A stretch of DNA of 18,522 nt. It comes from a bacterium (GTDB lineage Bacteria > CAIWAD01). Where the stretch lies: contig JAUXWS010000073.1 of the NCBI GenBank assembly GCA_030685015.1, forward strand, positions 1 to 18,522. Direction: 5' to 3'. The notes under the pieces are model-generated. The model ran no database searches, was not told where the DNA came from, and worked only from the letters and a program-made list of their open reading frames with translations. This document shows positions 263 through 18,522 of this stretch, piece after piece; the first letter of the stretch is position 1, and each line of letters begins with the position of its first letter. The translations under genes and the position numbers were made by a program.

Positions 263-320
263 CCTTGGGGCAAACCCCCATCCTGGCCTTCCCCCTTGCT
301 GGGGAAAGGAGGTCTCCCGC

Positions 321-540: not shown

Positions 541-589
541 ATCAAGTCTGCGCAATGCCGCTTCGCGCGGGACGATTGGGCCGCTTGTT

Positions 590-723: not shown

Positions 724-753
724 TTGGGATCCCAGCTTTCGCTGGGGTGACAG
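724..753. repeat. Short hairpin repeat upstream of elbB
   Basis: The stem CCCAGC-TTTC-GCTGGG (731-746) is preceded by the palindrome GGGATCCC (726-733) and followed by GGTGACAG. From general knowledge, this pattern resembles a short dispersed palindromic repeat seen between genes in many Proteobacteria. When translated it gives frames reading like VTPAKAGIP. It is fused directly to the truncated third unit of the upstream repeat. There is no T-run, so it is not a classic terminator. It sits 30 bases before the elbB start and could affect that mRNA's 5' end. Confidence 0.6.
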
Positions 754-782
754 GGGCGTTCGCTGGGCGATGGGAGGGAATC

Positions 783-1448: not shown

Positions 1449-1456
1449 TCCCGGCG

Positions 1457-1473
1457 CCGCCCGAGGCGGGCGG
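1457..1473. other. Small hairpin between elbB and glgC
   Basis: CCGCCC-GAGGC-GGGCGG forms a 6-bp GC stem within the 71-base gap. No T-run follows, so it is unlikely to terminate transcription. It may mark mRNA processing or be a chance fold in GC-rich sequence. Confidence 0.3.
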
Positions 1474-1519
1474 AGGATCCGGCGCGGTCGACAAGGGCGG
1501 GAAGCAGAGGGGGGGTCGG

Positions 1520-2758: not shown

Positions 2759-2944
2759 CAGCTTGTCGGACTTGGCCGCTTCGCGGTCTTCATCGCCCCA
2801 CCCGACGCTCGCGTCGGGCCTGTCGGTCCCATTCGACGCAGATTTCTTGCGAGCAAATACCATTACGCGACGCGAAATCTCCGCCGAATGGCCCTCGACA
2901 TGGGCGCGAATCCCATCGAAGGCCCAAGCCCGAAAGGCTGCTAG
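2755..2944. mobile_element. 190-bp MITE-like element with terminal inverted repeats
   Basis: The left end CTAGCAGCTTGTCGG (2755-2769) and the inverted right end CTAGCAGCCTTTCGG (read from 2944 to 2930) match at 13 of 15 positions. Inside are a second inverted repeat of 18 bases (2829-2846 with 2874-2891, 16 of 18 matching) and a stem CCCGACGC-TC-GCGTCGGG (2801-2818). It encodes no transposase. An open frame crosses it on each strand, but neither resembles a protein. If the palindromic CTAG is a target duplication, the inverted repeats proper are CAGCTTGTCGG and CAGCCTTTCGG. The combination fits a non-autonomous insertion element. The parent family cannot be named from the sequence. It begins within the glgC stop codon. 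Confidence 0.65.
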
Positions 2945-2974
2945 CCTGTTTGCCTGGCCGGTCATGCATCCCAC

Positions 2975-2999
2975 GGGCCCGGCTCCCCCGGCCGGGTCC
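2975..2999 (-). terminator. GC hairpin after the minus-strand membrane gene pair
   Basis: GGGCCCGGC (2975-2983) pairs with GCCGGGTCC (2991-2999) with one mismatch and a 7-nt loop. It lies 8 bases beyond the stop of the minus-strand membrane gene, where a terminator would be expected. It lacks a U-run, so it would be a weak or Rho-assisted terminator at best. Confidence 0.3.
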
Positions 3000-3006
3000 G
3001 GCGCGA

Positions 3007-3453
3007 TCAGGGGTGGCCGGGTCCAGTCGCGGGGCTGCTGTCCGTCCGGTGCAGGCCGGCCGACAGCCCCAGCGCCGTTCCCACCGCCAGATCCAGCCCG
3101 CCCAGCGCCGCCAGGCCCCAGGGGCTCTCCGCCGCCAGGAGCTTGAGCCAGCTGGAAAGGGCGATCATGGTCGCGATGAGCGCCAGCAGCCGCGGCTGGT
3201 AGACGCGCCAGGCCGGCACCCGTTCCCGCCCGCGCAGCCAGGCCACGTTGGCCGCCAGGATGCGCCGCATGACACGGCGTGCCTTGAACACGCCCAGGGC
3301 CAATCCCAATGGCAGCAACCAGGCGAAGTGCCCCGCGCCGAGGCCCAGGCCGAAGGCGCGGCTGAAGAGGCGCCAGGCGACCAGCAGGAGGATGAGGCTG
3401 GCCAGGCGCAGGACCCAGCCGCCCGCCACGATCAGGGTGTGTCCACTCAGCAT
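3007..3453 (-). CDS. Small integral membrane protein, paralogue of its upstream neighbour
   Basis: I do not recognise the family. The 148-residue product has about four hydrophobic stretches: near residues 8-30 (GGWVLRLASLILLLVAW), 40-56 (FAWLLPLGLALGV), 88-106 (LLALIATMIALSSWLKLL) and 111-133. Between the second and third is a basic segment, KARRVMRRILAANVAWLRGRE, that probably faces the cytoplasm. It aligns along its length with the product of 3487-3957: GGW.LRL, AWLLPL, KAR.VMRR, W..Y.P.L.A.IA.M, LG..DLA, ALL.SAG. The ATG at 3453 is 34 bases after the neighbour's stop and lacks a good Shine-Dalgarno, so translation may depend on the upstream gene. The tail after residue 135 is Pro/Gly-rich and differs from the paralogue. 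Confidence 0.75.
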   Translation of the reverse strand: MLSGHTLIVAGGWVLRLASLILLLVAWRLFSRAFGLGLGAGHFAWLLPLGLALGVFKARRVMRRILAANVAWLRGRERVPAWRVYQPRLLALIATMIALSSWLKLLAAESPWGLAALGGLDLAVGTALGLSAGLHRTDSSPATGPGHP

Positions 3454-3486
3454 GAAGGAAGGTGCAGCGGCGGCGGGGGCGGAATG

Positions 3487-3957
3487 TCAGGGGGATGTCG
3501 GACCGGGCCTCCCGCCGGTTGGCCGGGCCAGGCTCCCCTCGCCGGCTGCCGAGTAGATGCCCGCCGAGGCCAGCAGCGCGGCGGCGATGGCCAGGTCCAT
3601 GGCGCCAAGCAGGGCGGTGGGCAGCGCCCGGCCGGCGAAGATCTGGCGCAGCCAGGCCATCAGCATGACCATGGCGGCGATGAAGGCGAAGAGCTGGGGC
3701 GGGTAGAGCTGCCAGGGCCAGAGGCGGCCGCGGTGGGCGAGCAGGCGGTCCCGGTTCGCCACCATGCGGCGGCGCATGACGAAGCGGGCCTTGCCCCAGC
3801 CCCCGGCCGCCGCCAGGGGCAGCAGCCAGGCGAGGAGGACGGGCTCCAAGCCCAGCTGGAGGGCCTGGCGGAGCAGGACGCCCGTCTTCCACAGCAGGGA
3901 GAGCGCGCCCAGGCGCAGGATCCAGCCGCCCAGCCTCACCAAATGGATTCCACTCAC
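3487..3957 (-). CDS. Small integral membrane protein, first gene of a tandem paralogous pair
   Basis: The 156-residue product has unknown function and the same pattern as the protein at 3007-3453: hydrophobic segments around GGWILRLGALSLL, LLAWLLPLAAAGG, LFAFIAAMVMLMAWL and ALLGAMDLAIAAALLASAG, and a basic loop KARFVMRRRMVANRDRLLAH. I chose the GTG at 3957 because MSGIHLVRLGGW then aligns with MLSGHTLIVAGGW of the paralogue, and because GGGGGCGG lies just upstream. An ATG at 3987 would add ten residues with no counterpart. It is divergent from the formimidoyltransferase gene, with about 110 bases between starts that must hold both promoters. No convincing -35/-10 pair was found there. Confidence 0.75.
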   Translation of the reverse strand: MSGIHLVRLGGWILRLGALSLLWKTGVLLRQALQLGLEPVLLAWLLPLAAAGGWGKARFVMRRRMVANRDRLLAHRGRLWPWQLYPPQLFAFIAAMVMLMAWLRQIFAGRALPTALLGAMDLAIAAALLASAGIYSAAGEGSLARPTGGRPGPTSP

Positions 3958-4067
3958 ACCGCCCCCAATTTTGGCGCAACGTAGCATTGCCCCCGGCCTG
4001 GATGCGGCGGGATGACGAGCGGCTCCTTACCTTGCAGGCCGCCATGCAGATAGATCCGGAGGAAGCC

Positions 4068-5759
4068 ATGCCCGCCATCGTCGAGTGCGTCCCCAACTTC
4101 TCGGAGGGCCGCGACCGCGCCAGGATCGACCAGATCACCGCCGCCATCGCCGCCGTGCCCGGAGTCACCTTGCTGGATGTGGATCCCGGCGCCGCCACCC
4201 ATCGCACCGTCGTCACCTTCACCGGGGATCCCGACAGCGTGCTGGAGGCGGCCTTCCAGGCCATCAAGACCGCGGCCGAGACCATCGACATGCGGCGCCA
4301 CCAGGGCGAGCACGCGCGCATGGGCGCCACCGACGTCTGCCCCTTCGTGCCGGTCTCGGGGATCAGCATGGCGGAGTGCGCGGCCCTGGCCGAGCGGCTG
4401 GGGGAGCGGGTGGGCCGCGAGCTGGAGATCCCCGTCTACCTCTACGAGCAGGCCGCCCGCAGCGAGCAGCGGCGCAATCTGGCCGAAGTGCGCGCCGGCG
4501 AGTATGAGGGCCTGGGCCAGAAGCTGGCCGACCCCGCCTGGCGGCCCGACTTCGGCCCCGCCATCTTCGGCGAGCGCCAGCAGCGCACGGGCGCCACCGT
4601 CATCGGCGCGCGGCCCTTCCTCATCGCCTGGAACTTCAATCTCAACACCCGCGACGCGGCGCGCGCCCACGACGTGGCCATCACCCTGCGCGAGAAGGGC
4701 CGCCTGGCCAAGGATGCCCAGGGCAAGATCCTCAAGGACGCCGCCGGCAACAAGCTGCGCCAGCCGGGCCGCCTGCCCGCCACCAAGTGCGTGGGCTGGT
4801 ACATCCCTGAATTCCGCCGCGCCCAGATCAGCATGAACCTGACCGACTTCCGCGTCACGCCCATGGCCGTCGCCTTTGATGCGGCGGTGGAGGAGGCGGC
4901 CAAGGCGGGTTTGCGCGTGACGGGGGCGGAGGTCGTCGGCCTGGTGCCGCTGGAGGCCCTGCTCGAGGCGGGCCGCCATTACCTGGCCAGGCAGGGGCGC
5001 TGCACGGGCCAGAGCGAGGCCGAGCTGCTGGAGACGGCGGTGCAGAGCATGGGCCTCTCCGAGCTTTACCCCTTCAAGGCCGAGGAGAAGGTGGTGGACT
5101 ACCGCGTGTCCCGACGGAGCGGCCGCCTGGTGGACCTGGACCTGGGCGCTTTCGCCGACCTGCTCGCCTCCGACGCCCCAGCCCCCGGCGGCGGCTCCAC
5201 GGCCGCCCTCTGCGGCGCGTTGGGGGCGGCCCTGGCCGCCATGGTGGCCAACCTGACCCACGGCAAGAAGGGCCTGGGCCGGCATGACGAGGAGATGGAC
5301 CGCGTGGCGGCGGAGGGACAGCGCCTCAAGGCGCGCTTCCTGGGGCTCATGGACGAGGACACGGAGGCCTTCGCCGCCGTGATGGCCGCCATGAAGCTGC
5401 CCAAAGGGAGCGACGAGGAGAGAGCCGTCCGCGGCGCCGCCCTGGAGGAGGCCAACCGGCACGCCACGCTCATCCCTTTCCAGGTGGTGGAGCTGTGCGG
5501 CCCGGCCCTGGAGCTGGCCGTCGCCGTGGCCGCGCGCGGCAATCCCAACAGTCTGTCCGACGCCGGCGTGGCCGCCCTCTGCCTGGGCAGCGCCTGCGAT
5601 GGCGCGGCCATGAACGTGCGCATCAATCTGGCGGGCATCGCCGACAAGGCCTGGGCGGAAGAGATGGACCGCCGCGCGCGCGGGTTGCAGGAGGCCCTCC
5701 ACGCCCGGCGCACGCCGCTGCTGGCCGCCATCGAGGAGCGGCTGGCCTTTCGCGGATGA
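4068..5759 (+). CDS. Bifunctional glutamate formimidoyltransferase / formimidoyl-THF cyclodeaminase
   Basis: Transfers the formimino group from formiminoglutamate (histidine breakdown) to tetrahydrofolate, then releases ammonia to give methenyl-THF. The 563-residue protein has the fused architecture seen in animals and some bacteria. The N-terminal transferase begins IVECVPNFSEGRD (4-16) and has His82 in GEHARMGATDVCP, matching the catalytic His82 reported for the porcine enzyme. The second transferase subdomain runs to about residue 330. A linker then leads to the cyclodeaminase from about residue 355 (VDLDLGAFADLLAS, then APGGGSTAALCGALGAALAAMV). The ATG at 4068 is preferred because homology starts there and GGAGGAAG is placed correctly. 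Frames opening at 3987 lack such a site. No hut genes are in the window. The stop overlaps the next gene's ATG (ATGA). Confidence 0.95.
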   Translation: MPAIVECVPNFSEGRDRARIDQITAAIAAVPGVTLLDVDPGAATHRTVVTFTGDPDSVLEAAFQAIKTAAETIDMRRHQGEHARMGATDVCPFVPVSGISMAECAALAERLGERVGRELEIPVYLYEQAARSEQRRNLAEVRAGEYEGLGQKLADPAWRPDFGPAIFGERQQRTGATVIGARPFLIAWNFNLNTRDAARAHDVAITLREKGRLAKDAQGKILKDAAGNKLRQPGRLPATKCVGWYIPEFRRAQISMNLTDFRVTPMAVAFDAAVEEAAKAGLRVTGAEVVGLVPLEALLEAGRHYLARQGRCTGQSEAELLETAVQSMGLSELYPFKAEEKVVDYRVSRRSGRLVDLDLGAFADLLASDAPAPGGGSTAALCGALGAALAAMVANLTHGKKGLGRHDEEMDRVAAEGQRLKARFLGLMDEDTEAFAAVMAAMKLPKGSDEERAVRGAALEEANRHATLIPFQVVELCGPALELAVAVAARGNPNSLSDAGVAALCLGSACDGAAMNVRINLAGIADKAWAEEMDRRARGLQEALHARRTPLLAAIEERLAFRG

Positions 5760-6370
5760 CCTCACAGCCGAAGTTTCAAGCGGCCCGGCCTGATGCTGAC
5801 AAGGCCCTGCGGGGACGGATCCTGGCCTGTCTGCCCCATGCCATGGCATTTGACGGGGTGGGCTTCCGTTCCGTCGGCATGAAGTACGCCACGGAAGGGG
5901 ATCTGCTTTCCGGCCATGGAGCAAGCTGCTACGGCGGTCGGTGGAATCCACCCGGGATGCGCGCCGTGTACGTCTCCTTGAGTCCTGTCACTGCCGTCAA
6001 GGAGGCCTACCAGCTCTTCCTGCGCAACGGCATTTCTGCTGCCCAGATTCGTCCGCGCGTGCTGGCCGGCCTTCACCTTCGCGTGCAACGCCTCCTGGAT
6101 CTGACAGACACCTCGGTGCGCCGCCGGGTGGGTTTCCGCCTGCGCGACCTGTTGGAGGAATGGGCCGCCATCCAGCACCAGGGAGGTGAGGCCGGGACTC
6201 AAAGCGTGGGCCGGTGTGCCTTCGAGCTTGGTTTCGAGGGACTACTGGCACCCTCGGTCCAAGATCCACATGGAAGCAACTTGGTGGTGTTTCCAGAGCG
6301 CTTGCTGCCGGGAAGCGAGCTGCTGGTGATGGCCGCCGGCGACTTGCCTCCACATCCTCTGGCCTGTTGA
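5756..6370 (+). CDS. RES-domain toxin (ParT/MbcT-like NAD-targeting family)
   Basis: The 204-residue product carries a RES domain. Conserved positions visible are Phe37-Arg38 (GFRSV), YGGRWNPPG (59-67), Tyr72 and Ser74 (VYVSLS) and Glu83 (AVKEAY). Characterised members either degrade NAD+ (MbcT) or ADP-ribosylate phosphoribosyl pyrophosphate synthetase (ParT). Which applies here cannot be told. The ATG at 5756 overlaps the formimidoyltransferase stop by 4 bases and has only a weak upstream site, so expression may depend on read-through from that gene. Codon use is less GC-rich than in its neighbours, suggesting acquisition by transfer. The partner antitoxin follows at 6459, whereas in most RES-Xre pairs the antitoxin comes first. 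The key residues look intact. Confidence 0.85.
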   Translation: MTSQPKFQAARPDADKALRGRILACLPHAMAFDGVGFRSVGMKYATEGDLLSGHGASCYGGRWNPPGMRAVYVSLSPVTAVKEAYQLFLRNGISAAQIRPRVLAGLHLRVQRLLDLTDTSVRRRVGFRLRDLLEEWAAIQHQGGEAGTQSVGRCAFELGFEGLLAPSVQDPHGSNLVVFPERLLPGSELLVMAAGDLPPHPLAC

Positions 6371-6413
6371 CTGCATGCAGTCTTGCATGAAATTTTGCTT
6401 GCAAATTTTCATG
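6369..6413. promoter_or_regulatory. AT-rich palindromic operator/promoter region before the antitoxin
   Basis: Two inverted repeats lie in the only AT-rich stretch of the window: a perfect 14-bp palindrome GACTGCATGCAGTC (6369-6382), which includes part of the toxin's stop codon, and a 28-bp imperfect palindrome (6386-6413) with arms CATGAAATTTTGC and GCAAATTTTCATG (one mismatch). Candidate -35 hexamers TTGACT (6367) and TTGCAT (6384) are present, but no convincing -10 can be fixed. By analogy with other Xre antitoxins, these are likely autoregulatory binding sites. Confidence 0.6.
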
Positions 6414-6458
6414 TAAAAGAGCACATTCGACTTGAGGCAATGGATATGGGGGTGTAGC

Positions 6459-6881
6459 ATGGCAGGCAGAGCAAAAGCGACGGGAACGGCCGAACCCTTG
6501 GCCCAAGCCTATGGAGTGGCTGTGCCGGGCATGCACGGTGTCCAGGTGGTCACGGTGGGCCGGGAGACCAAGCTGGAACTGCGCCATCTGCTGGGGCTGG
6601 CGCGCGAGGCTTTCGGGCGCTTGGTGGATGTGTCCGTGCGCACTTTGGCCGAAGTGGAAAGCAAGGGAACCCGAGTCGACAAGCTTCAGCGCAACTATCT
6701 TGAGGTGAAGCGTTTGTGCGACGCGCTGGGTGAAGTCATGGAACCCGCCGCGTTGGGTCGCTGGCTCACCCTGCCCAACGAGGCCTTCGGCGGCCTGAAA
6801 CCCCTCGAGGTCATCGAGCGCGGCGAGATCGACCGATTGTGGGAACTGGCCTTCCGCCTGCGCGCGGGCCTGCCGTCCTGA
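6459..6881 (+). CDS. Xre/MbcA/ParS-type antitoxin of the RES toxin
   Basis: The 140-residue product has two parts. Residues about 38-80 resemble an Xre-like helix-turn-helix (LRHLLGLAREAFGRLVDVS...). Residues about 88-135 match the toxin-binding domain of this antitoxin group (DUF2384), with ALGRWLTLPNEAFGG and KPLEVIERGEIDRLWEL. Antitoxins of this class cap the RES active site and repress their own promoter. The ATG at 6459 has GGGGG about 6 bases upstream. A TTG 27 bases earlier extends it without homology. It lies 88 bases after the toxin gene, with its own AT-rich control region between, so the antitoxin can be made independently of the toxin transcript. Confidence 0.87.
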   Translation: MAGRAKATGTAEPLAQAYGVAVPGMHGVQVVTVGRETKLELRHLLGLAREAFGRLVDVSVRTLAEVESKGTRVDKLQRNYLEVKRLCDALGEVMEPAALGRWLTLPNEAFGGLKPLEVIERGEIDRLWELAFRLRAGLPS

Positions 6882-6962
6882 GGCGGCCCGTCCCGGACCT
6901 TGCTCCTCAGGCCCGGATCCGGCATCTTGGGCCCGGTCGCGACCCCGCGCCGCACCCTTTAA

Positions 6963-8657
<1,695 letters not shown>

Positions 8658-8668
<11 letters not shown>

Positions 8669-9956
8669 GCTGAACCTGATCGAGGGCGCCCGCCTGCTGC
8701 TCAAGGGCGCCCGCCTGCTGGATCCGGCCACCGGCCTGGACGCGGTGGAGGACCTGCTCATCGAGGACGGCCTCATCGCCGCCCGCGGCCCCGGGCTTGA
8801 GGCCGAGGACGCCGAGGTGCTGGAGCTGGAGGGACTGCTCGTCGTGCCCGGCTTCGTGGACCTGCGCGCCCGCTTCGGCGAGCCCGGCCACGAGGACCGC
8901 GAGACGATCGAAAGCGGCCTGGACGCGGCGGCGGCGGGCGGCTACACGGCGGTCTGCCTCACGCCGGAGAACGAGCCGGCGGGCGACACGGCGGGGGCGA
9001 TCGAGTTCCTCCTGGCCCGCGCCGAGGAGCATCCCGTCACCCTCCTGCCGCTGGGGGCCGTCACCCAGGGGCTGAAAGGCGAGCGGCTGGCCGACCTGGG
9101 CGAGCTGGCCCGCGCCGGCGTGGCCGGCTACTGCGAGGGCAACCGCGGCCTCAGGGGCGCCGCCGCCCTGCGCGGCGCGCTGAGCTACAGCCGCATGTTC
9201 GGCCTGCCCCTCTTCGAGCTGGCGCGCGATGCCAGTTTCGAGGGAGGCCACGTGCACGAGGGTCTCGCCAGCCTGCGCATGGGCCTCAAGGGCACGCCGC
9301 GCCTGGCCGAGGACCTGGGCGTGCAGCTGGGCATCCGCGTCGCCGAGTACGAGGAGGCCCGCCTGCACCTGCAGCTGATCAGCACGCGGGAGAGCATCGC
9401 CCTGCTGCGCGCCGCCAAGGCGCGGGGCGCGCTGGTGACGGCCGATTGCAGCCCGCAGCATCTGGCCCTGAGCGATGGGCGCTGCCTGGACTACGACCCG
9501 GCCGCCCGGCTGCTGCCGCCCCTGCGCCCCGAGGAGGACCGCCTTGCCCTGGTCGCCGCCGCCGCCGCCGGGGTGTTGGACGCTGTCTGCAGCGACCACC
9601 GGCCCGCCGAGTTCGACGACCTGGACAAGGAGTACCCCTTCGCCCCCTTCGGCTGCGCCTCCCTCGAGACGGCCTTCGCCGTGGCCCACCGCGCCCTCGT
9701 GGAGAGCGGCGCCTGCGACCTGGAGCGCCTCCTGGAGTTGTTCAGCGCCGGTCCCCGCCGCATCCTGGGGCTGCCCCCGGCCGGCTTCGAAGCGGGCACG
9801 CCCGCCGAGCTGACCCTGCTCGACCTGGCCTGCTCCTGGACCTACCGCGGCGCCGAGGCGCTCACCCTGGGCGTCAACAGTCCCTGGGAAGGCGTCGCCT
9901 TCACCGTGCGCCCGGCGGGGATGGTCAACGGCCGCTACGCCGCCCTGCGGGGCTGA
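8658..9956 (+). CDS. pyrC': Dihydroorotase homologue lacking metal ligands (PyrC', probably non-catalytic)
   Basis: The 432-residue protein follows type I dihydroorotase throughout, but the zinc site is gone. The usual His-x-His after PGFVD is Arg70-Ala71-Arg72 ([13 protein letters not shown]). The usual HCED is ELAR (187-190). The usual His before VST is Leu240 (LQLIST). Only Asp313 of the DHAPH motif is kept (CSDHRPAE). Non-ligand features such as [17 protein letters not shown] and [15 protein letters not shown] remain, so this is a maintained protein and not a decayed gene. In Pseudomonas, an inactive PyrC' is needed for PyrB assembly. The GTG at 8658 overlaps pyrB by 11 bases and has GGGAGG 8 bases upstream. 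A true dihydroorotase must be encoded elsewhere. The 100 bases after the stop show no clear terminator. Confidence 0.9.
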
Positions 9957-10056
9957 TCCGGTCTCCGGCCCCGCCTCGGGCGAACCGCTGATCCACGATG
10001 CGGAGGGGGGACGGGCCGGACTCGACCTGCCCGGCAATCTCCCGCGGCTGGCCGGG

Positions 10057-11220
10057 TCAGGGGGCGGGGGCCAGCCAGGGGGAGAGGCCGCGCTCGAGCA
10101 GCTCGGGCAGTTCGGGCAAGCCTGCGTAGCGGATGGCCTTGTCCGGCTGAAGGGTCCCCAAGGCCAGGCACAGCTCCCGCACCGCCTCCAGGTGTCGGCC
10201 CACCCGCAGCGTGAGGGGCAGGCCGGTGGAGTCCACCGGCACCTTGTTCATGCCCGGGATGGCCGCCGCCGCCTGGTAGCAGGGGTCGTCGCCGGCCAGG
10301 ATCTGGCGGGCGTCGGTGCGGCCGCGCAGGCGGCCCTGGCCGGGGTTGGCCGTCTCGAGCAAGGTGGCGAGCAGGCCGGGCACGGCGTCCCCCAGTTCGC
10401 GGTGGCTGAGGCCGCGCAGCCGGGGCGGCGAGGGTTCCAGCGTGATCTGGATCTCCTTCATGGCGAGGCCGAACACCGCCTCGGCGGCCAGCTCGCCCGC
10501 CGCCTCGTGGGCCACCACGGCATTGACCACCGGGTACTCGATGGCCGCCTCGTGCAGGTCGATGAGGAGGTCGATCCCCTCGCGCTCGATCAGGCGCCGG
10601 ATGGCCCAGGCCACCTGTTCGGTGAAGCAGCCATCGGCCCGGCCGGGGAAGCTGCGGTTGAGGTTGCGCACCTCGTTGCCGCTGAGGGCCTGCCCGCTGG
10701 GCCGGTGGATGGTGATCTCGGGGTCGGGCCACTGGTCGAGCGGGTTGGTGCCGCGTCCCCCCACCCGGAAAGCGCGCGGCCGACCGTCGGCGGCGGGCAG
10801 GACGATGAGCTGGGGCGTGCCCTCCTGGGGATCCGTCGCCGTGAAGGCGGAGGCGTTGGCCCGGGGCAGGACCCAGATCTCGCCCTGCTCCACCTGCAGG
10901 TTCTCCACGAGCAGGACGGCCGCCAGGTGCCCGGCCGGTTCGTTGGGATGGGATCCGCCCAGCACCAGCACGCGGCCGCCCGGCACGGCGCCGGCGAAGC
11001 GGAAGAGCTCCGTGTCACCCCGGGTGCCGGCCAGGGCCGGGTGCCAGTCCGCCAGCCGGTGCTGCCCGGCCAGGCCTGGACCGGGGAAGAGCGGCTCCAC
11101 CCGGCGCTGGGCGAGGAAATCCCGCCCCGCCGCCCAGGCCAGGAGCGCGACCCCCGCCAGCAGCAGGCCGCGCCGCCCCCAACTCCCGGTGTTCTGCCGC
11201 GCCCCGTTCGCCTTCATCAT
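10057..11220 (-). CDS. Membrane-anchored M14/AstE-like zinc hydrolase
   Basis: The 387-residue protein has an N-terminal hydrophobic anchor or signal (about 17-31, RGLLLAGVALLAWAAG) and a zinc carboxypeptidase-like domain of the succinylglutamate desuccinylase/aspartoacylase group. Zinc ligands are visible as His91-x-x-Glu94 (GGSHPNEPAG) and His223 (IDLHEA). The substrate-binding segment VRNLNRSFPG (184-193) and a general-base-type Glu289 in LLETANP complete the set. It probably acts outside the cytoplasm, cleaving an amide bond next to a carboxylate, such as an acyl- or gamma-glutamyl amino acid; the substrate is not determinable. Two adjacent ATG codons (11220 and 11217) follow GAAGGA very closely, so the second may be used. 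It is the last gene of the ggt operon, 40 bases after the small membrane gene. Confidence 0.85.
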   Translation of the reverse strand: MMKANGARQNTGSWGRRGLLLAGVALLAWAAGRDFLAQRRVEPLFPGPGLAGQHRLADWHPALAGTRGDTELFRFAGAVPGGRVLVLGGSHPNEPAGHLAAVLLVENLQVEQGEIWVLPRANASAFTATDPQEGTPQLIVLPAADGRPRAFRVGGRGTNPLDQWPDPEITIHRPSGQALSGNEVRNLNRSFPGRADGCFTEQVAWAIRRLIEREGIDLLIDLHEAAIEYPVVNAVVAHEAAGELAAEAVFGLAMKEIQITLEPSPPRLRGLSHRELGDAVPGLLATLLETANPGQGRLRGRTDARQILAGDDPCYQAAAAIPGMNKVPVDSTGLPLTLRVGRHLEAVRELCLALGTLQPDKAIRYAGLPELPELLERGLSPWLAPAP

Positions 11221-11260
11221 TCCTTCGCCGTTGTTGAGCAGGTCCGCCCGGGCCGCCCGC

Positions 11261-11416
11261 TCACTTGATGAGCAGCACCCGCAGGAGGAAGGGCACCAGG
11301 ACGAGGGCGGCCGTCGCCGCCTCGCGCCAGGAGGCCTCCCGCCGCCACAGCTCGGCCAGGCAGCCCAGGGCCAGCAGGCCGGCCAGGGCCCAGTAGATCC
11401 AGAAGAGGAGCTTCAT
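11261..11416 (-). CDS. 51-residue membrane protein in the ggt/permease operon
   Basis: This short protein has two predicted membrane segments, FWIYWALAGLLALGCLAEL (5-23) and AATAALVLVPFLLRVLLI (33-50), joined by a charged turn (WRREASWRE). The ATG at 11416 overlaps the permease stop (ATGA), the same coupling seen throughout this operon, which is good evidence that it is a real gene. It is far too short and has too few helices for a TRAP DctQ subunit (usually about 160-200 residues and four helices), but its place beside a DctM-like permease suggests a cut-down partner. Small proteins also occur in poly-gamma-glutamate operons (PgsE), though I see no sequence similarity that I can assert. Confidence 0.72.
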   Translation of the reverse strand: MKLLFWIYWALAGLLALGCLAELWRREASWREAATAALVLVPFLLRVLLIK

Positions 11417-12729
11417 CGTCCCCCCAGCCAGTCGGCCATCGGTCCGCCGAAGTAGATCAGCGCCAGGGCCCACAGGCCGATGGCGAGGGCGGGCAGCAGA
11501 CAGACGCGCAGCACTCTGAGGTAGTCCGGCTCGTCCACCACCTGCGCCGCGAAGATGCCTGAGAGCGCCGTGGGCGGCATCAGGTCGCCCAGGGCGGCCA
11601 GCAGCGAGAGGCCGGCCCCCACCCAGATCTCGGGCCGGCCCAGCATGGCCAGCAGGAAGGGGACGCCCAGCACGCTGGCGCTGCCGAAGGCGCTCACGGC
11701 CCCGAAGAGGGGCAGGCCGGCCAGCATGCCCAGCCAGGCGGCCCACTCGGGCAACTGCAGCACGGCGATGACGAGGCCGCCCCGCAGGCCGCTCACGGTC
11801 ATGATCTGGATGAAACAGCCCACGCCCACGAGGATGGCCATCACGGGCAGGGCCTGGCGCAGGGCGGCGCGGGCCACGTCCAGCGGGCGCAGGCGCTCGC
11901 CCACCCGCAAGCCCAGCAGGGAGGCCAGCACGAAGATGAGCGGCAGGCCGAGGGAGGGGAAGTGGCCAGGCCAGAGGCGCGGGCCGCCCATCAGCACGAG
12001 GACGAGGAGGACGGGCAGGAGCAGGCGCCAGCCGTGGCGCTGCCAGGGTCCGGGGTCGAGGCCGGCCAGGGCGGCCTCCGGGTCGCCCCGCCGCAGTGGA
12101 CCCCAGCCCAGCCAGAGCGCGATGAGCACCAGCGGCGGCACGCTGAGGAGGAGGAGGGGCAGGGTGAAACCCAGATAAGGCATGTCCACCCCGCCGCCGA
12201 TGATCATGACGGGCAGGTTGACCGGCGGCGCCACCATGCCGAGCAGGGCGGCCAGGGCGATGAAAGCGCCCACCCTGCGGCGGTCCATGCCCATGCGCAG
12301 CATGGGCGGCGCGGCGATGGCGCCGGTCGTCAGGACGCTGGCCGTGGTGAGGCCGGTGAGGGTGCCGGGGAAGGCGACGAAGGCGGCCAGCAGCACGGCC
12401 AGCAGGGCCGGGCGCCGGCCCAGGCGGGCCAGGATCAGCCAACTGAGCGAGGCGAGCAGACCGTTGCCTTCGATCACCTTCATGAACAGCAGGGCGGTGG
12501 CCATGATCAGGATGGGATCGATGTAGATGAATCCCCCTTCGACCAGATGGCGCCAGACCGAGCTGCCGGGCTCGACCAGGCCGCCCTGCGTCGTGGTCCA
12601 CAGCGGCAGGCCCGTCACCAGGCCCCCCGCCAGCGCCGCGGCGGCCAGGGCGAGACCCAGGGGCCAGCGCCGCCAGAGGAAGAGCGCGACGAAGATGAGG
12701 AGCATGACGCCCAGCGGCCACAAGGTCAC
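11413..12729 (-). CDS. DctM-like large permease (TRAP/ion-transporter superfamily)
   Basis: The 438-residue protein has roughly 11-12 membrane segments and resembles the large DctM subunit of TRAP transporters. The central stretch FPGTLTGLTTASVLTTGAIA, continuing through RMGMDRRRVGAFIALAALLG to MVAPPVNLPVMI, corresponds to the conserved DctM region with a small-residue loop and a PP motif. The second half has a comparable AVSAFGSASVLGVPFLLAM and LGDLMPPTALSG, consistent with the internal two-fold repeat of this fold. Such permeases import carboxylates using ion gradients. No periplasmic DctP or standard DctQ gene is nearby. The GTG at 12729 overlaps the previous gene's stop (GTGA). An ATG at 12705 is the alternative. 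Confidence 0.85.
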   Translation of the reverse strand: MTLWPLGVMLLIFVALFLWRRWPLGLALAAAALAGGLVTGLPLWTTTQGGLVEPGSSVWRHLVEGGFIYIDPILIMATALLFMKVIEGNGLLASLSWLILARLGRRPALLAVLLAAFVAFPGTLTGLTTASVLTTGAIAAPPMLRMGMDRRRVGAFIALAALLGMVAPPVNLPVMIIGGGVDMPYLGFTLPLLLLSVPPLVLIALWLGWGPLRRGDPEAALAGLDPGPWQRHGWRLLLPVLLVLVLMGGPRLWPGHFPSLGLPLIFVLASLLGLRVGERLRPLDVARAALRQALPVMAILVGVGCFIQIMTVSGLRGGLVIAVLQLPEWAAWLGMLAGLPLFGAVSAFGSASVLGVPFLLAMLGRPEIWVGAGLSLLAALGDLMPPTALSGIFAAQVVDEPDYLRVLRVCLLPALAIGLWALALIYFGGPMADWLGGR

Positions 12730-13712
12730 GGCCGCCTCGCGGGGCGGGCGGCGGGCCGGCAGTCCTTGGCCACCGCGGCCGGCGTGCGCGCCTCGCGGGG
12801 TGGCACGGGCAGGCCCCAACGCTTGGCCAGGCGCACGATGTCGCTCAAGTGCAGGACAGGCAGGCCCTCCTGCCAATAAAGCTGCATGACGCCGACCGTG
12901 CCCGCCTCCCCCTCGCCCTGCTGGACATGGGGGGCGTACTCGGCACCCAGCAGGCCGCCCGGCACCTGGCGCCCGAAATCGTTGCCGCCCAGCACGGCGT
13001 GGTTGCCGCCGATGTTGATGAGGAGGGCGAGGTGGGAGCGTGGCCCGAAGACCTCCCGCCGCAACTCGACCGCCTGATGCAGGTTGGTGGGGTGGAGGCT
13101 CTCCCCGTGGGGACGCAGGGCGGCCCCGGCCGCGCGCACAGCCTCCAGCGTCAAGCCGTTGAGACGGTCGCCGCTGCCTCCCGGCGTCACCACCATGGAG
13201 CCCATGCGCAGCAGGCTCCGTTCGCGCAGCCAGTCCTCCACCAGCGGCCAGTTGAAGCCGGGCTCGTTGGCGCCGAAAGTGGAGGCGCCCAGGCTGGAGA
13301 CGCAGCGATAGGGGATTCCGCCCGCCTCGAGGGTGAGGAGGACGGCCAGGTTGAGTCCGGGGAAGGAACCGGTCATGGCCACGGCCACCGTGTCGGCGGG
13401 GCCGATGCCCAGGCTGTCGAGCAGGCAGGCCACCACCCGGCACCAGCCGCTCTGGGCCGCCGCCAGCTTGGCGTCGAGCTGGCCCAGGGAGGTGGTGAGG
13501 AGGCCGTCCTCGGATCCGATCAAGCCGCTGAGGGCCGGGTCCAGCGCCTCCGACCAGGAGCCGGAGGCCCGTCGCTGGGCCAGCACCCAGCCGCTGGCCT
13601 CGAGCCAGGCATCCTCCGCCTGGCGGACCTGGCGCGGCGTGAAGGCGCCGGCGGCCAGGGAGGCGAGACCTGCCAGGAGCAGGACCGGCAGGAGGACGGC
13701 GTGGCCCCTCAC
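12726..13712 (-). CDS. pgsW: PgsW-like 'poly-gamma-glutamate system' protein (TIGR04332 type)
   Basis: The 328-residue exported protein has a hydrophobic signal (about 5-22, AVLLPVLLLAGLASLAAG). Its motifs match the family named poly-gamma-glutamate system protein: AMTGSFPGLNLAVLL (112-126), VSSLGASTFGANEPGFNW (138-155), a later INIGGNHAVLG, and GLPVLHLSDIVRLAKRWGLPVPP near the end. The biochemical role of the family is unknown. It is recognised by its usual neighbours, the PgsB/PgsC polymer synthase, which are missing here. The GTG at 13712 overlaps the ggt stop (GTGA), and its own stop overlaps the permease start, so it is tightly coupled to both. The last 25 residues are Ala/Arg/Pro-rich and poorly conserved. 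Confidence 0.82.
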   Translation of the reverse strand: MRGHAVLLPVLLLAGLASLAAGAFTPRQVRQAEDAWLEASGWVLAQRRASGSWSEALDPALSGLIGSEDGLLTTSLGQLDAKLAAAQSGWCRVVACLLDSLGIGPADTVAVAMTGSFPGLNLAVLLTLEAGGIPYRCVSSLGASTFGANEPGFNWPLVEDWLRERSLLRMGSMVVTPGGSGDRLNGLTLEAVRAAGAALRPHGESLHPTNLHQAVELRREVFGPRSHLALLINIGGNHAVLGGNDFGRQVPGGLLGAEYAPHVQQGEGEAGTVGVMQLYWQEGLPVLHLSDIVRLAKRWGLPVPPREARTPAAVAKDCRPAARPARRP

Positions 13713-15391
13713 GGCGTCCGGGCCTCCACGGCGCGGCCGTCGCGGCGGGGATCGGCGGCTCCGATCAGCGAGCCGCCCGCCACCGGCGCGGAGCGGATGC
13801 CATGGGCGCCACCGAAGAAGGTGTCGTAGGGACCCATGGGGTAGAGGCGGTAGCCGATCCCCTCCAGGGCCGCCGTGGTCTCGGCCGGGAAGCGCGGCTC
13901 GATGACCAGGGTCGTGCCCGCCGGATACCAGCGGGGGGCGTCCATCGCCTCCTGGAGGGACTGCCCCAGCGCGAGATGGCGCAGCAGGATCTCCACCATC
14001 GTCGAAGGAATGCGCAATCCGCCCGGCGTGCCCAGGCAGAGGAGGGGCGACCCGCCCTCCAGCACGATCATGGGCGCCATGCTGCTGCGCGGCCGCTTGC
14101 CCGGCTCCGGCAGGTTGGGGCTGTCCCCCTCCCAGCTGAAGTCGTCCATCTGGTTGTTGAGCAGGATGCCGTCCACCAGCAGGCCGGCCCCGAAGAAGTA
14201 GTTGATGCTCTGGGTCAGGCTCACCACGCCCCCCTCGCCGTCCCAGACCGAGATGTGGGTCGTGTTGCCCATGTCCCGCCGCTGGTCGGCGGGAGCCTCC
14301 CAGTAGGGCCGCGAACCCAGGGCCGGCCACACGGCCTGGATGGCGTCCGGATGGATGCGGGCCAGGGCGGCGCGGGCCAGATCGGGCGCCAGCAGGCTGT
14401 CCACCGGCGTGGCGTGGAAGGCCGGATCGGCGCAATGGCGGGCGCGATCGCGCAGGGCCTTGCGCAGGGCTTCGCTGATCACGTGGATGCGTCCCGCCTC
14501 GTCCAGGGCCGACAGGTCGAGGGGCTCCAGGATCTCCAGGGTCTGCATGGCGGCCAGGGCGCCGCTGGCGGGCGGGGGCGCGCCCACCAGGGTGTGGCCG
14601 CGCCATTGGCTGCGGAGCGGCTCACGGACGATGGCCTGGTAGGAGGCCATCTCCCCGGCCGTCAGCCAGCCGCCCGCGTCGCGCACGGCCGCGGCGATCG
14701 CTTCCCCGCGGCGGGCGGGGAAGGCGGCGAAGCCCCCGGCGGCGATCTCCTCGAGGGCGCGGGCCAGCCCCGGATTGCGCAGGCTGTCCCCCTCCATGGG
14801 CGGCAGGCCGGTGGGGAGGAAGAGGGCGGTGAAGCTGCTGTCCGTCAGGAACTGGCCGGCCCGCTCGCCGATGAGGGCGGCCAGGGAGGGACTGACCGGG
14901 AAGCCGTCCCGCGCCAAGCGGATGGCGGGGGCGGCGAGGCGGTCCAGGGGCAGGCGGCCATGCCGTTCATGGAGCAGGCCCAGACCGGCGGCGGCGCCCG
15001 GCACGGCCACGGCCGTGCCGCCGCGGGAGCGGGCGGTGTGGAGCGTGTCGGCCGGATCGAAAAAGACCTCCACCCTCAGGTCGCGCGGGGCCTCCTCGCG
15101 GTAGTCGATGGACTCGATGGTCCCGATTGGCGAGCGCACCAGGGCGAAGCCGCCGCCGCCCAGACCCGAGGCCTGCGGCTCGACCACGGCCAGGACCAGG
15201 GCGACCGCCACGGCCGCGTCGGCCGCCGTGCCACCCTCCTCCAGCACCGCGGCTCCGGCCTCGGCCGCCAGGGGATGGGCCGCCACCACCATGGCGGGCG
15301 CCGCCTCCGTCCCATGACACAGCCCGAACAGGAGACACCAAGCCTTCAGCGGCCAATTGGACCGCGCCTGTCGCGTGAAATGGGCCATCAT
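13709..15391 (-). CDS. ggt: Gamma-glutamyltranspeptidase (exported, self-processing)
   Basis: The 560-residue precursor has an N-terminal signal (about 13-31) followed by AAHPLAAEAGAAVLEEGGTAADAAVA, the usual start of the large subunit. Self-cleavage should occur before Thr377 in GNTTHISVWD, which becomes the nucleophile of the small subunit. NNQMDDFS and KRPRSSMAP, the substrate and oxyanion segments, are intact, as is CLGTPGG. Such enzymes remove terminal gamma-glutamyl groups from glutathione, gamma-peptides or poly-gamma-glutamate in the periplasm or outside. Two adjacent ATGs (15391, 15388) follow GGGGAGG directly, so the second may be the true start. It is the first gene of a five-gene minus-strand operon and is divergent from the secreted orphan at 15505. 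Confidence 0.95.
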   Translation of the reverse strand: MMAHFTRQARSNWPLKAWCLLFGLCHGTEAAPAMVVAAHPLAAEAGAAVLEEGGTAADAAVAVALVLAVVEPQASGLGGGGFALVRSPIGTIESIDYREEAPRDLRVEVFFDPADTLHTARSRGGTAVAVPGAAAGLGLLHERHGRLPLDRLAAPAIRLARDGFPVSPSLAALIGERAGQFLTDSSFTALFLPTGLPPMEGDSLRNPGLARALEEIAAGGFAAFPARRGEAIAAAVRDAGGWLTAGEMASYQAIVREPLRSQWRGHTLVGAPPPASGALAAMQTLEILEPLDLSALDEAGRIHVISEALRKALRDRARHCADPAFHATPVDSLLAPDLARAALARIHPDAIQAVWPALGSRPYWEAPADQRRDMGNTTHISVWDGEGGVVSLTQSINYFFGAGLLVDGILLNNQMDDFSWEGDSPNLPEPGKRPRSSMAPMIVLEGGSPLLCLGTPGGLRIPSTMVEILLRHLALGQSLQEAMDAPRWYPAGTTLVIEPRFPAETTAALEGIGYRLYPMGPYDTFFGGAHGIRSAPVAGGSLIGAADPRRDGRAVEARTP

Positions 15392-15450
15392 CCTCCCCGC
15401 ATCTGGAAGTCCGTGCCGGCACGTCCGCCCAGGCCGCGCCCGGCTTGTCC

Positions 15451-15456
15451 ATCATA
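15451..15456 (-). promoter_or_regulatory. Candidate -10 box for the ggt operon
   Basis: On the minus strand this reads TATGAT, one base from the sigma-70 consensus, about 60 bases before the ggt start. No good -35 is found at 16-19 bases. It lies in the 113-base gap between ggt and the divergent gene. The opposite-strand TACATT at 15482 could serve the plus-strand gene but also lacks a -35. Confidence 0.35.
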
Positions 15457-15504
15457 GCAAAGGGGCTGGCCATTGGCTTTGTACATTGCGGCCAAGGAGG
15501 AGAC

Positions 15505-16119
15505 ATGAAAGCCCTTGCCGCCTTGTCCCTGGCCGCCTGCCTGCTGGCGGTCCATCCAACCGGGAGCCGGGCCGTCGAGCTGACGCCCCGCTCCCAGGAC
15601 CCCCGCGACGTGGCGCGCGTGACCAGTCGCCAGGCCAGACCGATCCTCGTCTTTCCGGCGGAGGAGGCCTGGACCCTGGCCGAGCATCACGCCGAGCCCC
15701 GTCTCATGACCCGCAGCTTCGTGGCCGGCCAGCCGGCGGGCGAACCGGGCGTGGATTTCGCCACCATCACCCTGATGCGCGGCATCTGGGAGGCGGACTT
15801 CGACCGGGTGCAGCGCCTGTTCGGGCAGAAGCTGGGCGCCGAGTGCGCGGAGCCGCAGGCCAGCCAATGGTTCGACACGATGGATCCCATCCCCCGTCGC
15901 CTCATCGTCTGGACCTGCCCGTCGGCCGATCCGCCTTTCGCCATCCTCCAACTGCTCATCCAGGGACCGGACGACCTCTTCAGCGTCGAACTCTACAGCC
16001 GCTCCGGCCTCCCGGCCGAGGGTCTTCTCGTGCGCTGGGCGGAGTGGCTGAAGGAGATCGCCTTGTGTGATCGCGGCGCGGGCGGTGCGCCCTGTCCGCC
16101 CGGCAACTGGGACGAGTGA
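15505..16119 (+). CDS. Secreted protein of unknown function
   Basis: The 204-residue product has a clear signal peptide (MKALAALSLAACLLAVHPTG, with likely cleavage after SRA at about residue 23). I do not recognise the mature domain. It has four cysteines after the signal (in GAECAEP, VWTCPSA, ALCDRG, APCPPG), so two disulfides are possible in an exported protein. The centre, PRRLIVWTCPSADPPFAILQLLIQG followed by DDLFSVELYSRSG, looks like a beta-rich fold. The start is secure: ATG at 15505 with AAGGAGG (15494-15500) is the strongest ribosome site in the window, implying good expression. It is divergent from the ggt operon and may share its control region. No link in function can be shown. Confidence 0.82.
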   Translation: MKALAALSLAACLLAVHPTGSRAVELTPRSQDPRDVARVTSRQARPILVFPAEEAWTLAEHHAEPRLMTRSFVAGQPAGEPGVDFATITLMRGIWEADFDRVQRLFGQKLGAECAEPQASQWFDTMDPIPRRLIVWTCPSADPPFAILQLLIQGPDDLFSVELYSRSGLPAEGLLVRWAEWLKEIALCDRGAGGAPCPPGNWDE

Positions 16120-16265
16120 GGCGCGGGAGTCCGGCGGGCTCGACCACTTTGCCTGCGTGGCTGCGCCTTGCGCCGAGCGAAGTGGGCGCATCATCATCCG
16201 GCCTTCCCCGCGCCCGGCCACCCTCCACCGGCCTGGACGGGCGATGTCCTCTTGCCCGGGCCCAC

Positions 16266-16290
16266 CTGACAGCGGATGTCAACATGTCAG
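16266..16290. promoter_or_regulatory. Inverted/direct repeat upstream of the uvrB promoter
   Basis: CTGACA (16266-16271) is the inverse of TGTCAG (16285-16290), and a further TGTCA at 16277 makes a direct repeat TGTCA-ACA-TGTCA. The site lies about 30 bases before the proposed -35. uvrB is commonly under SOS control, but the motif does not match any LexA box I can name with confidence. Confidence 0.35.
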
Positions 16291-16319
16291 CCGCCCGCGG
16301 CACGGCTTCCCCGCTCGCT

Positions 16320-16347
16320 TTGCGAGGGGGCCGATTTTCTGTTATCT
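16320..16347 (+). promoter_or_regulatory. Candidate sigma-70 promoter of uvrB
   Basis: TTGCGA (16320-16325), a 16-base spacer and TTATCT (16342-16347) form a plausible -35/-10 pair, with an AT-richer spacer than its surroundings. Transcription would start near 16354, leaving about 95 bases before the uvrB ATG. Confidence 0.45.
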
Positions 16348-16449
16348 TCCTTCCGCACAAGGAAGTTGTTGGCAGACGGTTCCTTCCGCCCTGTCCGAAG
16401 GCCGCCCGCGCGGCCCCGGCGGGAGCGGAGGCCGGGTCAGGAAGGGCGG

Positions 16450-18522
16450 ATGAGCGACACCTTCACCCTGGTGAGTGACTTCGCCCCATGCGGGGATCAG
16501 GGAGAGGCCATCCGCCAGCTCGTGGAAGGCTTCGCCGGCGCCGCGCCAGGCGCGGGCAGGGCCCAGGTCCTGTTGGGCGTGACCGGCTCGGGCAAGACCT
16601 ACACCGTGGCGCAGACCATCGCGCGGCTGGGGCGGCCCACCCTCGTCCTCTCCCACAACAAGACCCTGGCCGCCCAGCTCTACGGCGAACTGAAGGGCTT
16701 CTTTCCGCGCAATGCCGTCGAGTTCTTCATCAGCTACTACGACTACTACCAGCCCGAGGCCTATCTCCCGGCCAGCGACACCTACATCGAGAAGGACTCG
16801 TCCATCAACGCCGAGATCGACCGGCTGCGGCTCAAGGCGACCAGCTCGCTCATCGAGCGGCGGGACGTCATCATCGTCGCCAGCGTGTCGGCCATCTACG
16901 GCCTGGGCAATCCCGAGGAGTACCGCAAAGGCCTGGTGGTGGTGCGCGCCGGGGAACCGATCCAGCGACGCGAGCTGCTGCGCGGCCTGGTGGACATCCA
17001 CTACACGCGGGCCCCGGCACAGTTGGAGCGCGGCACTTTCCGCGTCAACGGCGACGTGCTGGAGATCCAGCCCGCCTACGAGGAGACGGCGCTCCGTCTG
17101 GACACCTTTGGCGACGAGCTGGAGCGCATCCAGGTGATCAATCCCCTCACGGGCGAGGTGCTGGGGGAGAAGCCCGCCGCCGCCATCTACCCGGCCAAGC
17201 ACTTCGTCACGGACCGTGGCAGCCTGGAGCGCGCCGCCGCCTCGATCGAAGCCGAGCTGGCGGAGCGGCTGGGGGAGCTGGAGCGGGCCGGCCGCGCCGT
17301 GGAGGCCCACCGCCTGCGCCAGCGGACGCGCTTCGACCTCGAGATGATGCTGGAGATCGGCTACTGCTCGGGCATCGAGAACTACAGCCGGCACCTGGAC
17401 AGCCGCGCCCCCGGCTCGCGCCCCTCCTGCCTGCTGGACTACTTCCCCTCCGACCTGCTGGTTGTGGTGGACGAGAGCCACGCCTCGCTGCCCCAGCTGC
17501 GCGCCATGTACCGGGGCGACCGCATGCGCAAGGAGACGCTGGTCGAGCATGGTTTCCGCCTGCCCAGCGCCCTGGACAACCGGCCCCTCACCTTCGAGGA
17601 GTTCGAGGCGCTGGCCCCCGACCTGCTCTTCGTCAGCGCCACGCCGGCGGACTACGAGCTGGCGCGCGCCGGCGGGGCCTATGTCGAGCAGCTCATCCGG
17701 CCCACCGGCCTGCTTGACCCCGAGATCATCCAGCGGACGACGGAGGGGCAGGTCGAGGATCTGGCCGAGGAGATCGGCCGCTGCGCCGAGGCCGGGGAGC
17801 GTGTCCTCGTCACCACGCTGACCAAGCGCATGGCCGAGGATCTGGCCGCCTTCCTGGGCCGCCGGGGCATCCGGGTGCGCTACCTGCACAGCGACATCGA
17901 GAGCCTGCGCCGCGTCGAGCTGGTGCGGGACCTGCGCCTGGGCGTCTTCGACGTGCTGGTGGGCGTCAACCTGCTGCGCGAGGGGCTCGACCTGCCCGAG
18001 GTCAGCCTCGTCGCGGTGCTGGACGCCGACAAGGAGGGCTTCCTGCGCAGCGCCCGCAGCCTCTTCCAGATCACGGGACGGGCCGCCCGCCACCTGCAGG
18101 GCCGCGTCATCCTCTACGCCGACTCCACCAGCCCGGCCATGGCCCAGGTCATCGCCGAGACGGCCCGCCGGCGGGTGATCCAGGCGGCCTGGAACGAGGC
18201 GAACGGCGTCACGCCGCGCTCGGTGCGCAAGACGGAGGCGGAGATCCGCGCCACCACCACCGTCCTGGACGAGGCCCGCCGCATCGAGGAGTACGACCGC
18301 GGGTCCTCCCGGGCGCGCCGCGTGGCGGAGGGCGGGGCCCTCTACGCCGGCCTGGAGGACTGCCGCGACCGCGAGTTGCTGCACAGCCTGATGGAAGAGG
18401 CCGCCGCCCGCCTGGATTTCGAGCAGGCCGCCCTCTTGCGCGACCGTCTGCGCGCCGTGGAGGCGGAGGAGGGGCCGGGCGCCGCAGCGGCGGGCGCCGT
18501 GCCGGCGGGCGCCGTGCCGGCG
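16450..18522 (+). CDS. uvrB: UvrABC system protein B (excinuclease helicase subunit), 3' end cut by window
   Basis: Damage-verifying helicase of nucleotide excision repair, working with UvrA and UvrC. The open frame runs 691 codons to the window edge without a stop. Visible in order: Walker A GVTGSGKT (43-50); the beta-hairpin segment FFISYYDYYQPEAYLP and SDTYIEKDSSINAEIDRLR; Walker B VVVDESH (Asp341-Glu342); LFVSATPADYE; motif V GVNLLREGLDLPEVSLVA; motif VI QITGRAARH; and the UvrC-binding UVR domain at about 641-675 (LHSLMEEAAARLDFEQAALLRDRL). Motif VI usually reads QTIGRAARN, so two positions differ. The ATG at 16450 has AGGAAGGG upstream. Family members normally end soon after the UVR domain, but here an Ala/Gly/Val/Pro repeat tail continues past the window. 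Confidence 0.97.
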   Translation, partial: MSDTFTLVSDFAPCGDQGEAIRQLVEGFAGAAPGAGRAQVLLGVTGSGKTYTVAQTIARLGRPTLVLSHNKTLAAQLYGELKGFFPRNAVEFFISYYDYYQPEAYLPASDTYIEKDSSINAEIDRLRLKATSSLIERRDVIIVASVSAIYGLGNPEEYRKGLVVVRAGEPIQRRELLRGLVDIHYTRAPAQLERGTFRVNGDVLEIQPAYEETALRLDTFGDELERIQVINPLTGEVLGEKPAAAIYPAKHFVTDRGSLERAAASIEAELAERLGELERAGRAVEAHRLRQRTRFDLEMMLEIGYCSGIENYSRHLDSRAPGSRPSCLLDYFPSDLLVVVDESHASLPQLRAMYRGDRMRKETLVEHGFRLPSALDNRPLTFEEFEALAPDLLFVSATPADYELARAGGAYVEQLIRPTGLLDPEIIQRTTEGQVEDLAEEIGRCAEAGERVLVTTLTKRMAEDLAAFLGRRGIRVRYLHSDIESLRRVELVRDLRLGVFDVLVGVNLLREGLDLPEVSLVAVLDADKEGFLRSARSLFQITGRAARHLQGRVILYADSTSPAMAQVIAETARRRVIQAAWNEANGVTPRSVRKTEAEIRATTTVLDEARRIEEYDRGSSRARRVAEGGALYAGLEDCRDRELLHSLMEEAAARLDFEQAALLRDRLRAVEAEEGPGAAAAGAVPAGAVPA
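18490..18522 (+). repeat. 15-bp tandem repeat in the uvrB 3' end
   Basis: The unit GCGGGCGCCGTGCCG occurs twice exactly (18490-18504, 18505-18519), and a third copy begins at 18520, where the window stops. In frame it encodes the pentapeptide AGAVP. The copy number and the end of the protein lie outside the window. Confidence 0.85.

Follow-up and report, generated by a model that had tools for sequence, protein, structure and literature searches.

Among the closest described systems are the poly-gamma-glutamate (gamma-PGA) synthesis operons of Bacillus (pgsBCA/capBCA) and Francisella (capBCA), and genes for PgsB and PgsC are known well beyond Bacillus, for example in Cloacimonadota (PMC13082233). 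For the purpose and handling of the polymer outside Bacillus, a conserved partner module would offer a concrete and testable gene set. Here we describe a five-gene cassette on an 18,522-nucleotide stretch of DNA from a bacterium of GTDB lineage CAIWAD01 (assembly GCA_030685015.1, contig JAUXWS010000073.1, positions 1 to 18,522; hereafter the window). The genome that contains it encodes the same PgsB and PgsC families as the known operons; in contrast to those operons, however, pgsBC lie on another contig, and the cassette holds a second PgsW protein that lacks the C-terminal tail (PgsW2), together with a gamma-glutamyltransferase (GGT), a DctM-like permease, a 51-amino-acid membrane protein (p51) and an M14 hydrolase. 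Our leading, though still tentative, reading is that the cassette is an envelope module which trims and re-imports the cell's own PgsBC-type gamma-glutamyl polymer. We found no description of this module in the open-licence literature of PubMed Central (PMC), and nothing there matching PgsW as a TIGR04332 protein, the DUF6305 family discussed below, or the combination of GGT, TRAP and gamma-PGA. Within that literature the setting in which the cassette places the PgsW family has no earlier description, in agreement with a first reading of these letters made without database searches (the sequence-only reading).

The genes of the cassette and their junctions are as follows:

13709 to 15391 (15391-13709), minus strand: GGT, 560 amino acids, TIGR00066 and PF01019
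12726 to 13712, minus strand: PgsW2 (PgsW-like), 328 amino acids, TIGR04332
11413 to 12729, minus strand: DctM-like permease, 438 amino acids, PF06808
11261 to 11416, minus strand: p51 membrane protein, 51 amino acids, without family
10057 to 11220, minus strand: M14 hydrolase, 387 amino acids, PF24827
13709 to 13712, minus strand: GGT/PgsW2 stop/start overlap, GTGA
12726 to 12729, minus strand: PgsW2/DctM stop/start overlap, GTGA
11413 to 11416, minus strand: DctM/p51 stop/start overlap, ATGA

The coordinates and the three overlaps agree with the sequence-only reading; the remaining spacing, from p51 to M14, is 40 nucleotides. Four of the five genes (GGT, PgsW, the DctM-type permease and the AstE/AspA-type M14) are backed by curated models, and the ratio of nonsynonymous to synonymous substitution (dN/dS) of all five against two congeners is 0.26-0.49, well below 1. 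The same five-gene order recurs in all three family relatives (G002, G003 and G004), a result that upholds the cassette as a real unit, against which a lack of conservation would have counted. Furthermore, pyrB, pyrC and uvrB, which flank the cassette in the window, were not found beside it in G004, so it is the five genes themselves that form the conserved unit, and the arrangement exceeds chance. Judged from open reading frames, the 4-base PgsW2/DctM overlap is kept in 4/4 family genomes, while the remaining junctions are 4-base overlaps, 1-base overlaps or mostly short gaps, the longest being that between GGT and PgsW2 in G004 (about 118 nucleotides). Tight packing is thus largely kept within the family, exact overlaps are not. 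Overlaps of four bases are frequent within bacterial operons, so those of the cassette speak for a joint transcript and for coupling, without demonstrating the fixed protein ratio that had been proposed.

The synthase itself is encoded in the same genome. Contig C13 carries adjacent genes for PgsB (422.9 bits) and PgsC (119 bits), followed by a first PgsW (PgsW1, 283.7 bits), and two PgsW genes with one pgsBC are likewise present in each of the three family relatives. The statement of the sequence-only reading that PgsB/PgsC are missing therefore holds within the window but fails genome-wide, where a complete pgsB-pgsC-pgsW set is found. That reading had also named, as a finding that would speak against it, a pgsBC operon elsewhere serving the same transcript; a complete pgsBC does exist elsewhere, but pgsBCW1 and the cassette lie on separate contigs, with no sign of a shared transcript. 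Proteins of the CapA/PgsA type (PF09587) are encoded at one unlinked place only. Directly after PgsW1 lies a gene for a 322-amino-acid secreted protein without a Pfam family (L001:277-1242, minus strand, on contig C13 of G000).

Co-occurrence with and without pgsB/pgsC, the check that the sequence-only reading had suggested, was examined in a sample of 398 genomes from the phylum of one module locus (L046). The M14 subfamily of the cassette was found in 24/398 genomes and PgsW above cut-off in 25/398, and every one of the 24 M14 genomes has PgsW (Fisher 1e-37, with the 398 genomes treated as independent and relatedness uncorrected). PgsC accompanies the module or PgsW in 29 of 31 genomes; of the two without a PgsC match, the PgsW of G297 lies at the edge of a contig and the G022 assembly is a draft. 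Among 20 PgsW genomes searched, the M14 subfamily was present in seven, all of them genomes with the cassette, with its DctM-p51-M14 core, or of Caldithrix, and 13 were without M14. Most genomes are metagenome-assembled genomes (MAGs), in which absence from a draft is weak evidence, and the p51, DctM and M14 profiles were made from few seeds. Core genes directly adjoin pgsBC in 15 genomes, from Bacillota and Mailhella (loci L036, L046, L101, L102, L103, L105, L113, L114, L118, L119, L120, L196, L197, L198 and L204). PgsBCW occurs without the module, and the module without PgsBC is not convincingly seen; dependence is one-way, of the module on PgsBCW. The proposed tie of the cassette to gamma-glutamyl and PgsW biology is thereby strengthened.

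The same counts bear on a stand-alone route along the lines of the sequence-only reading, by which foreign gamma-PGA, gamma-glutamyl peptides or N-acyl amino acids would be degraded and imported independently of PgsBC. The predicted extracytoplasmic location of GGT and M14 and the uptake-type fold of the permease would suit such a route, and several modules per genome would match several substrates. Non-producers, however, should then carry the module often, yet M14 is accompanied by PgsW throughout the sample and PgsC is nearly always present, and in 15 genomes the linkage to pgsBC is direct. We therefore disfavour scavenging of a foreign polymer, which appears improbable, and prefer turnover of the cell's own product because the module is found almost only in PgsBC/PgsW genomes, with its core beside pgsBC.

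As we picture this own-polymer turnover, PgsBC would make and export a gamma-glutamyl product, as a polymer or as oligomers. At one chain end the GGT, secreted and lid-less, would remove or transfer gamma-glutamyl units, and the membrane-anchored M14 hydrolase would cut from the carboxyl side, at the gamma-amide or N-acyl bond. The glutamate or short carboxylates set free would then re-enter the cell through the permease and its small partner p51, and PgsW2, presumably outside the cytoplasm, may bind the chain or its fragments and so link the polymer to the enzymes and the transporter. This scheme is favoured by the co-occurrence of M14 and PgsW, the linkage to pgsBC and the one-way dependence, as well as by the absence of the lid loop from GGT, the zinc-carboxypeptidase likeness of PghL/PghP, the predicted outside position of the M14 active site and the carboxylate/anion transporter fold of the permease. 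Several points weigh against it. We infer from sequence the substrates of all components and gamma-PGA as the product of PgsBC in these lineages, and likewise the uptake direction of the permease. In Francisella, capB and capC are not required for capsule (PMC4688374). The nearest relatives of M14 are N-acyl amino-acid deacylases, not PghP, and for PgsW2, which has no confident fold match, the binding role is a guess. Several Bacillota have at least four M14 copies with a single PgsC, counts that are lower bounds (up to four candidates scored per genome) and also cover M14 proteins of a shorter and less closely related type; this exceeds the apparent need of simple recycling and argues for something richer. 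If the scheme is correct, these polymers would be made, trimmed and taken back, and would not be just static capsules. The gene set to pursue comprises the lid-less GGT, the dedicated M14 subfamily, the transporter, the new 51-amino-acid family and, as two uncharacterised families of extracytoplasmic proteins, the tail-less PgsW and DUF6305.

The GGT matches TIGR00066 over its full length (400.9 bits, cut-off 357.85), matches PF01019 as well, and is predicted to be secreted. Its catalytic threonine is residue 377 (GN-TTH), the position at which small-subunit chains start aligning. Aligned to the Bacillus GGT 4y23 it is ungapped at the lid-loop region, and it is about 10 residues shorter than the E. 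coli GGT 2e0w at the lid-loop insert; by this alignment it is of the lid-loop-negative type, and the spacing is identical in those GGTs in which the motif was found. The lid loop controls donor size in GGT, and B. subtilis GGT has gamma-PGA as its physiological substrate (PMC9073855), lid-less Bacillus GGTs being described as gamma-PGA degraders (PMC9073855; PMC8062742). Compared with release and turnover enzymes of the GGT/CapD/PgdS type, the window GGT shares the autoprocessing site and lid-less architecture of the gamma-PGA-degrading Bacillus GGTs, but differs in that its gene shares a cassette of five with those for a permease and M14.

CapD raises a different possibility, since this GGT relative anchors gamma-PGA to peptidoglycan (PMC8062742) and its structure 3g9k is among the structural matches of the window GGT. 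The cassette might accordingly serve maturation: a CapD-like GGT would move gamma-glutamyl chains onto an envelope acceptor, with M14 trimming, PgsW2 holding and DctM/p51 in support by export or glutamate supply. The module does accompany the synthase, and the multiple copies would make sense if a single synthase needed a separate module for each acceptor. The window GGT nonetheless lies nearer to general GGTs than to CapD: full-length Bacillus and E. coli chains score 289 and 281 bits against it, and the CapD large chain only 121, where the large chains of other GGTs reach 182-193. Anchoring also leaves no obvious place for a carboxylate-type transporter, and many PgsBCW genomes are without M14. 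We regard anchoring as unlikely, although it ranks first among the alternatives to own-polymer turnover.

The M14 hydrolase matches PF24827 (33.8 bits, cut-off 25) and carries the zinc motifs HPNE and DLHE (ligands HxxE and a later H). Its nearest solved relatives by profile are deacylases of the AstE/AspA and DoeB types. The N-terminal anchor is positive-inside in 37 of 43 members of the subfamily, the window's own being just moderately hydrophobic, and the catalytic domain is predicted to lie outside the cytoplasm. Membership of the PghP-type sequence family was considered and rejected, the Pfam scan having returned PF24827 alone. In both fold and zinc site, the gamma-PGA hydrolases PghL/PghP are similar to zinc carboxypeptidases (PMC6506827), and the cassette enzyme shares its zinc ligand motifs and fold family with these and with the AstE, AspA and DoeB deacylases; in contrast to both, it belongs to a separate subfamily that is membrane-anchored, has a WPDPE region of its own and is confined to PgsW genomes in the genomes sampled. 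Weak similarity to M99 (Csd4) and MpaA models allows a further reading, in which M14 would act on gamma-D-glutamyl-diaminopimelate bonds of peptidoglycan while GGT and the permease handle the fragments. Such recycling of envelope peptides is very unlikely: DoeB/AstE/AspA-type enzymes match M14 better, and a process found in most bacteria would not track PgsBC/PgsW.

The permease matches PF06808 (36.7 bits, cut-off 23.8). Its AlphaFold2 (AF2) model has a predicted local distance difference test score (pLDDT) of 92.3, its top Foldseek match is the TRAP transporter IseQM (E 3.4e-9), and VIA Z values of 20-29 to TRAP, DASS and ArsB structures extend over nearly the full length. On this model its place in the ion-transporter (IT) superfamily is secure, although the predicted fold fits TRAP, DASS and ArsB alike and does not separate TRAP from DASS. 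The likeness to TRAP systems such as DctPQM, SiaPQM and IseQM lies in PF06808 and the TRAP/DASS IT fold; the difference lies in p51, which is not a DctQ-type four-helix subunit, having 51 residues, two predicted membrane helices and no recognised similarity to DctQ. A family scan of the cassette proteins found no DctP or TAXI receptor among them.

No Pfam or NCBIfam family matched p51 above cut-off, and kinship with small proteins such as PgsE/CapE is no more than conceivable. That it is a real gene follows from its dN/dS of 0.39-0.49, well below 1. It has a conserved C-terminal P..LR....K motif, and in the p51 family alignment (A6, 26 sequences) Y8, P42 and R46 are invariant and L45 and K51 nearly so. 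The conserved residues and the position between DctM and M14 suggest that p51 is a dedicated partner of DctM and/or M14. Derivation of p51 from a piece of PgsC or of DctM was rejected (hhalign probability 0.3 percent each).

PgsW2 matches TIGR04332 at 198 bits (cut-off 100), a family which appears to correspond to the Francisella protein annotated CapA, 'poly-gamma-glutamate system protein' (PMC5362203). It has an N-terminal signal or anchor helix and no C-terminal membrane helix. From hydropathy and a reading of the tails, PgsBC-linked PgsW proteins end in a hydrophobic helix and module-linked ones terminate close to where the conserved domain ends. In a tree, nine module-linked PgsW split from 35 PgsBC-linked ones with branch support 98/90 (unrooted, with long branches present). 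With no pgsB/pgsC in the window, the tail absent and a separate clade, PgsW2 is not of the PgsBC-linked type; the best inference is a protein outside the cytoplasm, either soluble or held by an N-terminal anchor, of the same family origin as the synthase component. Its AF2 model (pLDDT 91, predicted template modelling score 0.90) has an alpha/beta fold, for which a search of the PDB gave no Foldseek match at E <= 0.001 and a best VIA Z of 7.3, within the no-relative range. Union of PgsW2 and DUF6305 in one family was rejected (hhalign probability 2.3 percent).

A genome-collection scan with the PgsW alignment returned 29 loci. With profiles made from the cassette genes, the order GGT-PgsW-DctM, followed by p51 and M14 if the contig reaches far enough, was found in Calditrichota (L033), KSB1 (L034) and SJ276 (L053), and PgsW-DctM-p51-M14 in STB_160 (L041), where the contig begins inside PgsW. 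Two MAGs, one of Mailhella (L036, Desulfovibrionaceae) and one of Eubacteriales (L046), have DctM-p51-M14 immediately upstream of PgsB-PgsC-PgsW; a broad search of the Mailhella phylum gave a full-length match in the Mailhella genome only. In Caldithrix the module is split, with PgsW2 alone, M14-DUF6305 and pgsBCW1 on three contigs (L096:9623-11474, L038:6776-7723). Between the module M14 and PgsB, several Bacillota have a second, short M14 gene of AstE/AspA type (L101:2686-3429, L102:9084-9899, L105:4594-5373).

The core in Bacillota and in the Mailhella MAG is usually accompanied by GGT and a gene for DUF6305 (PF19823). In Bacillota it is DUF6305, not PgsW, that occupies the slot between GGT and DctM, and its gene comes after that for M14 in KSB1, Calditrichota and SJ276. 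DUF6305 as a sixth gene missing from the window was rejected, the genome's own copy being unlinked, on contig C21. These genes lend themselves to a reading richer than recycling, an extracytoplasmic gamma-glutamyl cycle with the PgsBC polymer, not glutathione, as donor. GGT would conjugate environmental amino compounds, DctM-p51 would import the conjugates, PgsW2 or DUF6305 acting as the receptor, and the acceptor would be freed by M14; the transporter, of IT fold and with p51 as a two-helix partner, would be of a new type, several modules per genome serving different substrates. Several Bacillota combine the single PgsC and the multiple M14 modules with as many as nine genes for DUF6305 in one genome, which would suit a cycle, and DUF6305 elsewhere stands beside a histidine kinase, a response regulator and peptide ABC transporters, suggesting ligand sensing. 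M14 is, however, predicted to act outside, before uptake; in B. subtilis GGT, absence of the lid loop reduces transpeptidation compared with hydrolysis (PMC9073855); and the conjugates are only supposed. Both the cycle and its transporter variant are doubtful, and we rank them below scavenging as well as below anchoring.

Further observations concern DUF6305. At 4/4 loci in genomes without PgsW (L187, L188, L191 and L193) the genes immediately downstream of it encode a membrane histidine kinase (HisKA/HATPase_c in both of those tested) and a response regulator, and oligopeptide ABC transporter genes are usually adjacent; DUF6305 may serve outside the cytoplasm as a sensor or to bind a ligand. 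At three loci it is fused to a second, shorter M14-type domain (minus strand; L114:13416-14624, L119:13623-14831, L120:13363-14589), and these fusions directly adjoin the PgsW of a pgsBCW operon.

Elsewhere in the window, divergent from GGT, a gene at 15505-16119 (plus strand) encodes a secreted protein without any family; it is likewise divergent in G003 (54 percent identity) and elsewhere, as far as seen, is not part of the module. A gene at 3987-5759 (plus strand) encodes a glutamate formimidoyltransferase fused to a cyclodeaminase/cyclohydrolase-type domain. At 5762-6370 lies a RES-domain gene and after it, at 6432-6881, one that weakly matches Xre/MbcA/ParS antitoxins (both plus strand); the two likely form a toxin-antitoxin pair with the RES gene first.

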